DNA of 23,742 nucleotides from a virus, in the IMG/VR virus record IMGVR_UViG_3300009285_000569, positions 1 through 23,742 of that record. The stretch is one strand, 5' to 3'. The stretch's first letter is position 1. Each line of letters opens with the position of its first letter. Below, piece by piece: positions 1-2,062 of the stretch. The notes under the pieces were generated by a model that had not been told where the DNA came from, ran no database searches, and worked only from the letters and a program-made list of their open reading frames with translations. The translations under genes were made by a program, and so were the position numbers.

Positions 1-207
1 TTCCGGCTCTGCCAGGTAGATGTGATCGACGCCGAGATCGACAATGCCTGGATACGTGAGTACCTGGGCATCCCGGCCAGGACGAAAGAGCAGCAGGCGG
101 AGATAGATAAGCGGCGCGAGGAGATGCAGGCGGCGATAGCGCCGGCGTCGGCGGTGGCGGAGGTGGCGGGTGACACGACAGGAGCGACTCCGCCTGTTCC
201 GGCCTAA
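1..207 (+). CDS. Portal protein, C-terminal fragment (probable)
   Basis: This is the 3' end of a gene that begins before the window. The frame is open from base 1 and stops with TAA at 205-207, giving 68 residues. The visible part is charged and helical, with a segment reading DAEIDNAWIREYLGIP, then a Lys/Glu-rich helix, then a low-complexity Ala/Val/Pro tail. A segment of the type 'lower-domain helix ending in xxLGIP' is common near the C-terminus of phage portal proteins, and the next gene is a MuF minor head protein, which normally follows the portal. The assignment therefore rests mainly on position. A GTG at 22 is in frame but has no need to be a start. The gene overlaps the next one by 38 bases, which implies translational coupling. 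Confidence 0.55.
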   Translation, partial: FRLCQVDVIDAEIDNAWIREYLGIPARTKEQQAEIDKRREEMQAAIAPASAVAEVAGDTTGATPPVPA

Positions 208-2062
208 CGTCACCCTGGGGCGGCTCGACCGCATCGAGCAGGCGCTGGTCAGGCAGACGATGGTGCAGTGTCGCATCCAGGCCGAGAGCCTGCGCATCCA
301 ATACGAGCGCAACGCGAAGCCGAGCGGCCTCATCCTTGACCGGCAGATCGTGAGGCAGGTTGCCGACCACCTCGCGCTGTCGATGGTGGGGACACTCACC
401 CAGGGGCGGTTGTCCATCCGCGAGGAGATCGCCGAGGCGAAGCGCACGCGATACGGCGGCAAGCCTGCGGTCTTCGCGGCCATTCGGCGCATCGTGCCTG
501 AGCCTGGTTCGGAGGTGTTCTACCCCGAGGCCGGAATCAACTGGTATCGGGGCTACTCGCTCCGGCTGGCAGGCGTCCAGCAGGTCGACGCGCTGGAGGC
601 GGCGAAGCAGGCTGTCGTCCGTGGCGTGGAAGAAGGGCTGTCCTCCCGCAAGGTGATGCAGGAGTTGTCGGATACGTTCGGCGACTTCTCCAAGAACCGC
701 TTGGAGATGATAGCGCGGACGGAGACCTCGAAGATTTACAACCAGGCGCGCTGGCGCGAGATGGACGGCGACTCTGCGATAGTCGGCTATGAGTGGAGCG
801 CCATCCTCGACAGCCGGGTGTGTCCGATCTGTGCGGCGCGCGCAGGACGGAGTTTCCCGAAGGGCCAGATTGAGGGAAGCCTTCCTCCCGTGCACGTAAG
901 TTGCGTCTTACCCGGAACGCGGCTTGAAGCGCCCTGTGGAATCGTCGCGGGGCTGAGGTCCTGGTATGATGGACAAGCCGTTGAGCTTACGCTCTCCGAT
1001 GGCCGTAGGCTTGCCGTTACCGAGAATCATATGCTCCCGACGCTCTACGGATTCGCCACGGCGAAGAATCTCCGCAAGGGAGACTATGTATTCGGCAGCT
1101 CCGATTTCCAAAGGGGCGTGTCTGGACACCCAGACGATAATGGGCAGCCAGCCGTTGTCGAGGAGATAATCAGTGCGCTTTCGGAATCGTTCGGCATGGT
1201 CTCCGCTGGTATGCCAATTTCCGCCGAAGACCTCCACGGCGACGGGCGATTCATTCAGGGCAATGTCGATATTATAGCGTCCGACGGCTTTTTGGAGTGT
1301 ATACGTAAAGCCAAATCCGGCGAGCATTTCGGCCAGTATGATTTCAGTCCGGCAGATGTGCGTACCGTTCGCCTCTCTGGTCACAGCTCTCTGGTACATA
1401 ATCTCTTCAGATGGGCTAACGCCCTTGACAGCATCATGGGCGGCAGACGAGAGGCGACGTCTTTCCTCCTGCGAGGTCTGGGACATTCGGAGGAACATTG
1501 CTTCGCTTCGATTCCGCAAAGGAATTCCGACTTCCTTGAGCCGCGCTGTAATCACGATGCGCTCGACGTTCATGCGGTTCGATATTGCCTTGATAGACTC
1601 GCCGGATTGATATGCGTCAATGACGGCAGGAACATCTACGGGAATCCGTCTTTCTATTGCTCGCAGCATGAATCCTTCGCAACGGGAACGGCGAGGGATT
1701 CCATATTCGATCAGGCGTTGTCTGATCGTTTCGCTGTTGACACCCAATTGCTCAGCGACTTGATTGACGGAGAGGCCGGAACTATAGAGCCTCTTGAGAT
1801 CGTGAATGTTGACATTTTTCCTTATGTTGGGCATGTGTATGACCTCCAAACATTGAGTTCATTATACATTGCCAATGGGATTTTGTCAAGTAATTGTCGA
1901 TGTATGCTTTTGCCGGTCTTCTCCTGGGAGATTGACGAGGGGACATACGAGTGGACTCCGATCCCGCAGGGCGCGCCGCAAGTTCCCCGGGGCTGGGGTA
2001 GCACGACTATGAAGATACCGCCGCCGAGGGATAAGGCGGTCGGGAAGCTGATAGCAGCATAG
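170..2062 (+). CDS. MuF-like minor head protein (SPP1 gp7 / Mu gpF family) interrupted by an intein
   Basis: The host protein is a head morphogenesis protein that sits at the portal vertex. The GTG start at 170 follows GGAGG at 159-163 with a 6-base gap. The N-extein is residues 1-244 and contains the family hallmarks: an ARTET...NQAR segment, then WSAILDSRVCPIC with Cys218 and Cys221, then PPVHVS. The C-extein is residues 576-630 and begins CRCMLLPVF. Joined, they give PPVHVS-CRC, the usual MuF motif (CxxC...HxxCxC), and a protein of 299 residues, normal for the family. Residues 245-575 are an intein (separate entry). Without splicing, the CxxC...CRC cluster is split by 331 residues, so splicing is probably needed for function. 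An endonuclease gene lies antisense inside this gene. Confidence 0.9.
   Translation: MTRQERLRLFRPNVTLGRLDRIEQALVRQTMVQCRIQAESLRIQYERNAKPSGLILDRQIVRQVADHLALSMVGTLTQGRLSIREEIAEAKRTRYGGKPAVFAAIRRIVPEPGSEVFYPEAGINWYRGYSLRLAGVQQVDALEAAKQAVVRGVEEGLSSRKVMQELSDTFGDFSKNRLEMIARTETSKIYNQARWREMDGDSAIVGYEWSAILDSRVCPICAARAGRSFPKGQIEGSLPPVHVSCVLPGTRLEAPCGIVAGLRSWYDGQAVELTLSDGRRLAVTENHMLPTLYGFATAKNLRKGDYVFGSSDFQRGVSGHPDDNGQPAVVEEIISALSESFGMVSAGMPISAEDLHGDGRFIQGNVDIIASDGFLECIRKAKSGEHFGQYDFSPADVRTVRLSGHSSLVHNLFRWANALDSIMGGRREATSFLLRGLGHSEEHCFASIPQRNSDFLEPRCNHDALDVHAVRYCLDRLAGLICVNDGRNIYGNPSFYCSQHESFATGTARDSIFDQALSDRFAVDTQLLSDLIDGEAGTIEPLEIVNVDIFPYVGHVYDLQTLSSLYIANGILSSNCRCMLLPVFSWEIDEGTYEWTPIPQGAPQVPRGWGSTTMKIPPPRDKAVGKLIAA
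908..1834 (-). CDS. EDxHD/Vsr-like homing endonuclease encoded antisense within the intein
   Basis: The protein has 308 residues, starting at ATG 1834-1832 and ending at TAA 910-908. The start is fixed by GGAGG at 1847-1843 with an 8-base gap; a TTG further upstream (1849) is part of that ribosome site. Residues 12-56 and 67-115 are two copies of one repeat: a helix-turn-helix (around 21-46 and 80-103) followed by a xxGIPxRxRxE segment, likely the DNA-recognition part. Residues 160-255 look like a PD-(D/E)XK fold of the Vsr-like EDxHD family, with Glu164, Asp190 (in NIDIAL), Glu201, His208 (in VEVFGGNWH) and Asp222 as candidate active-site residues. The last 50 residues are the exact antisense of intein blocks A and B. 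Its likely role is to cut intein-free MuF alleles. Target and activity are inferred. Confidence 0.85.
   Translation of the reverse strand: MPNIRKNVNIHDLKRLYSSGLSVNQVAEQLGVNSETIRQRLIEYGIPRRSRCEGFMLRAIERRIPVDVPAVIDAYQSGESIKAISNRMNVERIVITARLKEVGIPLRNRSEAMFLRMSQTSQEERRRLSSAAHDAVKGVSPSEEIMYQRAVTREANGTHICRTEIILAEMLAGFGFTYTLQKAVGRYNIDIALNESPVAVEVFGGNWHTSGDHAERFRKRTDYLLDNGWLPIIVWVSRHAPLEIGAAEYIVSLAEILRRGESVERREHMILGNGKPTAIGERKLNGLSIIPGPQPRDDSTGRFKPRSG
1843..1847 (-). promoter_or_regulatory. Shine-Dalgarno of the antisense endonuclease
   Basis: GGAGG on the minus strand, 8 bases before ATG 1834. It decides the ATG start over the in-frame TTG at 1849, which is itself part of the ribosome-binding region. 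Confidence 0.85.
1861..1889 (-). promoter_or_regulatory. Perfect consensus sigma-70 promoter for the antisense endonuclease
   Basis: Read on the minus strand, TTGACA lies at 1889-1884 and TATAAT at 1866-1861, separated by exactly 17 bases. Transcription would start near 1855, giving a leader of about 20 bases that contains the Shine-Dalgarno. All of it lies within the codons of intein blocks F and G, and the -35 box is only 5 bases inside the intein boundary. No other consensus promoter of this quality was noticed in the window. The transcript would be antisense to the MuF message. Confidence 0.88.

Follow-up and report, generated by a model that had tools for sequence, protein, structure and literature searches.

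The MuF-like minor head protein gene of the IMG/VR virus record IMGVR_UViG_3300009285_000569 is interrupted by what is very probably a mobile intein, with protein splicing encoded on the plus strand and a homing endonuclease on the minus strand of the same DNA. The stretch analysed here, referred to below as the window, comprises positions 1 to 23,742 of that record (23,742 nucleotides). From comparison with relatives, it seems likely that elements of this kind are widespread, that they combine splicing and homing as autonomous genes on opposite strands with control signals placed within the splicing motifs, and that they have arisen at least twice.

An Intein in a MuF Gene

The plus strand of the window carries the following features.

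170-2062 (+): open reading frame (ORF) of a MuF-like (SPP1 gp7 family) minor head protein, host of the intein (profile matches)
170-901 and 1895-2062 (+): exteins of this frame
902-1894 (+): intein of 331 amino acids, Cys1 to Asn331, followed by Cys+1 of a CRC motif (splicing blocks, Pfam profile, HINT-like model)
902-940 (+): block A (CVLPGTRLEAPCG), within which the antisense stop codon falls
1010-1042 (+): block B (LAVTENHMLPT), whose codons read antisense as the conserved last strand (HMILGNG-type) of the endonuclease
1229-1246 (+): island in the sense product at residues 110-115 (D/E-L/F-H-G-D-G), facing the catalytic strand VAVEV of the antisense protein
1280-1771 (+): sense spacer, approximately residues 127-290, open, with conservation only as the antisense gene imposes it and low AlphaFold confidence
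1829-1852 (+): block F (GHVYDLQT); its His codon CAT is the antisense ATG, and its D-L-Q codons hold the Shine-Dalgarno complement
1862-1894 (+): block G (LYIANGILSSN); the antisense -35 element lies within it, as does the -10 element apart from position 1861

In profile searches, the frame at 170-2062 matches Pfam Phage_Mu_F (E 1e-16), in the N-extein, and the phageSPP1_gp7 profile (E 1e-18). The insertion point lies directly 5' of a conserved CRC in the MuF motif, the first residue of which is Cys+1. The original prediction, made from the letters of the window, had placed a 331-residue intein with blocks A, B, F, and G at 902-1894, and these coordinates hold: the host frame stays open across the entire intein, ORF residues 266-574 match the Pfam Intein_splicing profile (E 1e-4), and Cys1, the T-x-x-H of block B, block F, the terminal Asn, and Cys+1 are all found. 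The same profile is matched by 72 of 78 relatives. In an AlphaFold model of the sense product, residues 1-70 and 295-331 are confident and HINT-like, and the best Foldseek matches in the PDB are mini-inteins; a small subdomain at about residues 85-126, which includes the HGD island, is also confident, and most of residues 131-275 are of low confidence. No Pfam endonuclease domain was matched in the sense middle, between blocks B and F, and most of this middle is only an open spacer. With its endonuclease antisense rather than in frame, the sense product is not a canonical bifunctional intein. Downstream of the MuF gene, the plus strand holds a strong terminator-like hairpin (2128-2171; 19 pairs and a T tail).

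The His that usually occupies the penultimate position of block G is replaced by Ser, Lys, or Arg in about half of the members (Ser in 79 of 208 inteins), and Ser at this position may entail slower or different splicing chemistry. Such replacements could indicate that the intein no longer splices efficiently and that MuF stays fused or is cut by the Hint domain. We consider this very unlikely: the MuF sequence flanking the junction is conserved on either side; C1, T-x-x-H, the terminal N, and C+1 are nearly invariant; and a phage intein with Gly in place of the penultimate His does splice (PMC5050341). An intein that excises itself is the reading that we prefer.

The Antisense Endonuclease Gene

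On the minus strand, the following are predicted.

908-1834 (-): homing endonuclease gene, 308 amino acids plus stop, in exact codon register with the intein (profiles, model)
1499-1813 (-): helix-turn-helix repeats, approximately amino acids 8-112 of the endonuclease (profiles, model)
1061-1351 (-): Vsr/EDxHD-like catalytic domain, approximately amino acids 162-258 (invariant Y187, N188, D190, and E201)

A minus-strand gene of 308 residues at 908-1834, inside the intein, had also been predicted and was recovered as such; its open frame spans 908-1849, with the ATG at 1832-1834 and the stop codon at 908-910. Positions 902 and 1832 differ by a multiple of three, which places the first base of each sense codon opposite the third base of an antisense codon. 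Separate profile searches of the two translations, proposed as a check, returned the intein profile for the sense product and, for the antisense protein, REase_MTES_1575 (3e-5), Vsr (7e-5, NCBIfam), and several helix-turn-helix families. The AlphaFold model of the endonuclease (pLDDT 89) consists of helix-turn-helix units and a beta-sheet nuclease core, for which Foldseek returned Vsr (probability 1.00, E 0.007) and I-Bth0305I (0.99, E 0.03). A PDB search with the single endonuclease sequence gave no informative match; a profile built from 78 relatives matches I-Bth0305I (PDB 3r3p) with an E of 2e-5. In agreement with the EDxHD/Vsr-like identity first suggested for it, the antisense product is predicted to be an endonuclease that joins helix-turn-helix units to a Vsr/EDxHD-type nuclease.

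A Widespread Family

The intein with an antisense endonuclease is a widespread family and not a singleton. Searches by tblastn recovered 120 phage records with the sense intein and 129 with the antisense protein, largely the same MuF-type genes, in phages of Salmonella (Jersey-type), Escherichia, Klebsiella, Pseudomonas, Vibrio, Idiomarinaceae, Aggregatibacter, Edwardsiella, and Gordonia. All 15 representatives, comprising 14 named phages and the window, have both frames open and in register. Scans of IMG/VR with either product as a single protein found no relatives, and a 13-row alignment (A1) was too divergent; closer sub-alignments were used instead, those of the antisense protein yielding 136 loci, two of them from bacterial genomes. 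In a first set of 153 loci, most found via the endonuclease, the opposite frame is open and intein-like in every case (weakly so in L153). From scans with intein motifs, which turned up 397 and at least 568 related stretches, 160 were kept; among the 152 complete inteins found via the intein strand, 149 have no interior in-register antisense stop. Together, the two search directions yield 208 complete inteins that are distinct from one another; 186 fall below 60% identity, and nearly all of the 208 keep both frames open. GE_vB_HIL (L156), an unverified record with split frames, was left out.

Further members occur in plasmid records of Promineifilum (Chloroflexota) and Streptomyces and in a Helicobacter prophage. 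Homologues with a stop in the sense frame were sought among the relatives, and none was found. An endonuclease broken by an in-frame stop within an intact splicing frame is rare (L146, L211, L214, and L282) and appears to reflect decay of the homing gene after fixation. Of the records examined in full, just one annotates the antisense gene at its position, that of Salmonella phage PK1 (L155:1444-2253), where it is listed as hypothetical protein XRA40086.1 opposite the head gene. In Virus Rctr197k (L011, 616-1968), a dual-coding intein lies between PCVA and C in an apparent dCMP deaminase gene, which is annotated as a head morphogenesis protein. A portal-MuF fusion frame (L041:3899-8089) contains an ordinary LAGLIDADG intein in its portal part and an antisense-endonuclease intein in its MuF part.

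Open Frames and Selection on Both Strands

A long open frame may lie opposite a gene by chance, as in G+C-rich genes; here stops are fewest in the in-register antisense frame, and some members of this family are G+C-rich. We nevertheless give this explanation next to no chance. Across the 47,108 interior codons of the 186 inteins below 60% identity, 32 in-register antisense stops were counted, against 1109 +/- 26 expected from synonymous redraws of the sense codons that follow the codon usage of the host gene itself. Stops in the other two antisense frames number about 8 and 18 per intein. Opposite the endonucleases of the first set, no sense stop was seen (542 +/- 20 expected). The matches of the antisense product to Vsr, MTES_1575, and helix-turn-helix profiles and to I-Bth0305I, together with its confident Vsr-like model, also tell against chance, and the explanation was rejected on the substitution pattern, in which the wobble position is reversed in most pairs of relatives, and on the control signals, which include a selected start codon, Shine-Dalgarno sequence, and promoter. 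We retain the view that the antisense frame is a gene.

Substitutions were compared in 29 disjoint pairs of relatives. Divergence in the intein middle is 0.448, 0.237, and 0.346 at sense positions 1, 2, and 3, so that the middle changes fastest at position 1, the endonuclease wobble base, whereas the exteins change fastest at position 3. The ratio of position 3 to position 1 divergence is 1.35 in the exteins, 2.16 in block A, 1.94 in block G, and 0.77 in the middle, and the excess at position 1 is present in most pairs, whatever their base composition. Classified as synonymous (S) or non-synonymous (N), first for the sense product and then for the endonuclease, single-base codon changes per opportunity amount to 0.091 (SS), 0.058 (NS), 0.016 (SN), and 0.007 (NN); changes that are silent in the endonuclease and alter the intein are thus nearly fourfold more frequent than the reverse. 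The implied ratios of non-synonymous to synonymous change are approximately 0.17 for the endonuclease and 0.63 for the sense middle (0.77 after residue 130).

These values bear on a second explanation, that selection acts on the sense protein only and the antisense similarity is its mirror image. In codon register, conservation of one strand does force some similarity on the other. As an account of the whole element this is scarcely credible, however, since the middle is fastest at sense position 1 and not 3, NS changes outnumber SN per opportunity, and relatives of the endonuclease stand free outside any intein. A column-by-column synonymous redraw was used to separate the conservation of each strand's protein. 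The sense product is conserved beyond the needs of the endonuclease at residues 1-60, 291-331, and the island 110-115, and not at about 121-250; the endonuclease is conserved beyond the needs of the sense product nearly everywhere, including opposite sense residues 21-60 and 291-331, and not opposite 1-20. Selection on the sense protein only was rejected for residues ~61-290 and holds for residues 1-20, where the endonuclease has no excess conservation. The sense motif D-F/L-H-G-D-G (window 1229-1246) is nearly invariant beyond what the antisense strand requires. Over the element as a whole, the substitution data point to an endonuclease under purifying selection and to splicing blocks selected as in an intein; dual coding is recognised by purifying selection on both products within the shared region, and this was found. 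The proposal that both strands code, made for the window, extends in this way to the family.

Expression Signals within the Splicing Blocks

Three candidate signals precede the antisense gene.

1884-1889 (-): -35 element TTGACA
1861-1866 (-): -10 element TATAAT, with a 17-bp spacer to the -35 element and 12 of 12 consensus matches
1843-1847 (-): Shine-Dalgarno sequence GGAGG, 8 nt before the ATG

In the window, the minus-strand promoter is spelled by the codons of block G, and the ribosome site and start by those of block F. The predicted possession of its own promoter, ribosome site, and start codon supports the original suggestion that expression of the endonuclease is uncoupled from splicing. 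Tests of these signals over the 186 divergent inteins used a synonymous redraw as the null. The block F His codon is CAT (antisense ATG) in 129 of 154 cases (59 +/- 5.5 expected from host codon usage), a Shine-Dalgarno sequence together with ATG is present in 101 inteins (12 +/- 3 expected), and the mean promoter score is 8.80 (4.84 +/- 0.13 expected), with 13 perfect promoters against 0. Against this null, chance is rejected for the start, Shine-Dalgarno sequence, and promoter of the antisense gene, and the signals are taken to be selected. AGGAG(G) is still present where block F reads DISSQS instead of DLQT. Some inteins have no His/ATG at the usual start, a Tyr there giving ATA, and some, notably several G+C-rich ones including those of Gordonia phages, have no recognisable sigma-70 promoter. 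The block F of the ordinary LAGLIDADG intein in L041 has Pro in place of His.

The position of the promoter differs with the end of the intein. In Ser-Asn inteins, TATAAT lies at a fixed 26 nt from the start, and a TTGACA-like box occupies the SSN codons of 42 of 79; in His-Asn inteins the distance is 45 nt, and 0 of 105 have such a box. Loss of the penultimate His goes with the antisense -35 box, an association whose significance is inflated by shared ancestry. Antisense control may have reshaped intein chemistry in this way, with the promoter as the putative cause of the loss of His.

Mobility and Origin

MuF homologues both with and without the insertion exist, as had been proposed for study. 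The MuF gene of phage K1ind2 is uninterrupted and without a scar, reads CCTAAC|TGTCGA at the junction, and is 87% identical to the joined exteins of LSPA1; intein-free homologues (K1ind2 and many Guernseyvirinae) align cleanly across the junction. Two loci (L022 and L023) have inteins that are 99.5% identical, N-exteins that are 64% identical, and an adjacent C-extein (84 nt) that is 98% identical, a pattern consistent with recent transfer accompanied by co-conversion of one flank. L002 and L012 present the opposite pattern, the intein being more diverged than the extein.

Relatives of the endonuclease also occur as free-standing genes. One lies convergent with and just downstream of an uninterrupted MuF gene in Acinetobacter phage IME285 (L157:413-1345); another, of zinc-finger type, is likewise convergent and just downstream of an uninterrupted MuF gene (L327:2842-3726). 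The in-register frame opposite each is interrupted by stops, from which it follows that an open opposite frame is not intrinsic to such endonuclease genes. Another intein, unlike the first, occurs in the same MuF gene (residues 232-620 of the sense ORF of L178/L326) and has its own antisense in-register endonuclease between the splicing blocks, a zinc-finger array with a Vsr/DUF559-like domain that is 50% identical to L327. It has 0 opposite stops in 289 codons, with TTGCTT-N17-TATAAT upstream and AGGAG before the ATG. This intein, represented by one contig, is possibly an independent origin of the arrangement, and the free-standing relatives (L157 and L327) are possible ancestors of it. On this view, inteins would have acquired convergent free-standing endonuclease genes on two or more occasions, and the gene of the main lineage would later have grown over the splicing blocks.

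The empty sites, the near-identical inteins in diverged hosts, the free-standing relatives, and the second lineage together lend support to homing. The antisense product might instead have another job, as a repressor, in Vsr-like nicking repair, or in phage exclusion, with the intein moving passively: its DNA-binding part consists of helix-turn-helix repeats like those of regulators, its free-standing relatives sit beside intein-free MuF genes, and a nuclease that cuts the MuF genes of competitors would double as a means of exclusion. We consider this unlikely in view of the near-exclusive tie to insertion in one MuF motif, the clean empty sites, and the horizontal transfer, all of which fit homing, and of the nearest solved relative of the nuclease, which is a homing endonuclease.

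Our preferred model is accordingly one of homing from the opposite strand. The plus strand would be translated with the late capsid gene, and the intein, judging from its splicing blocks, would excise itself from MuF. The minus strand would act as an autonomous gene, with a stop in or near block A and with block G and F codons doubling as sigma-70 promoter, ribosome site, and start. Its product would cut the intein-free MuF alleles of co-infecting phages, and repair would copy the intein in. Antisense transcription would precede late MuF transcription, a timing suggested by the host-type promoter consensus and by the late timing expected of capsid genes.

Here nature provides a widespread example, sampled in depth, of complementary strands that encode two proteins in codon register; the two opposed selective regimes can be measured column by column, and splicing motifs double as promoter and ribosome site. 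The arrangement points to a way in which an endonuclease could be expressed separately from the late capsid gene that houses its intein. An endonuclease family also comes to light in phages that are well studied (Salmonella Jersey-type, Klebsiella, Pseudomonas, and Gordonia), where annotation almost always records the capsid gene only. Intein-free sister phages exist, which makes homing directly testable.

Comparison with Known Systems

We know of EDxHD members that are intron-encoded or free-standing, and of none that lies inside an intact intein or is antisense; free-standing EDxHD endonucleases were reportedly described between split inteins by Dassa in 2009. The parts of the present element, an intein and an EDxHD-type endonuclease, are known. 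The original prediction knew of no dual-coding intein of this kind, and we found no published intein with an antisense endonuclease in the open-licence literature; a 2025 preprint on "non-canonical" actinophage inteins, cited in PMC11855218, may have priority for the Gordonia members.

Inteins in the capsid-morphogenesis genes of Guernseyvirinae (Snoke, LSPA1, and Jersey-type phages) have been reported (PMC6776784, PMC8425127), as has the lack of the insert in K1ind2 (PMC6776784); these are the same inteins, described as inteins only and apparently without mention of the antisense endonuclease. With I-Bth0305I and other EDxHD homing endonucleases (reviewed in PMC3943268), the antisense product has in common a Vsr-like catalytic fold and separate DNA-binding modules. 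The TerL inteins of mycobacteriophages are bifunctional, with a LAGLIDADG (or HNH) endonuclease fused in frame between blocks B and F (PMC5050341). Like these, the present element has HINT blocks, insertion in a conserved motif, an inferred endonuclease-driven mobility, and empty-site alleles in related phages; unlike them, it encodes its endonuclease as a separate protein on the opposite strand, in a gene that overlaps the splicing blocks and comes with a predicted promoter and start of its own.

The nearest published analogues are the antisense homing endonuclease genes of Didymium nuclear group I introns (PMC9548176) and the ShiLan element, in which an HNH endonuclease is hidden out of frame within phage methylase genes (PMC11855218). 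In Didymium, too, the endonuclease gene lies opposite a splicing element and its own promoter has been proposed, but the splicing element is an RNA intron in eukaryotic rDNA, and since the gene occupies a peripheral loop of that intron, no DNA there is protein-coding on both strands. The ShiLan insert, like the present one, is open in the frame of its host gene while the endonuclease is read in another frame; that frame is the third frame of the same strand, and neither a splicing domain nor a ribosome site was detected (PMC11855218). The element described here differs from ShiLan in being a true intein, with its endonuclease on the opposite strand, in codon register, and preceded by a predicted promoter and Shine-Dalgarno sequence.
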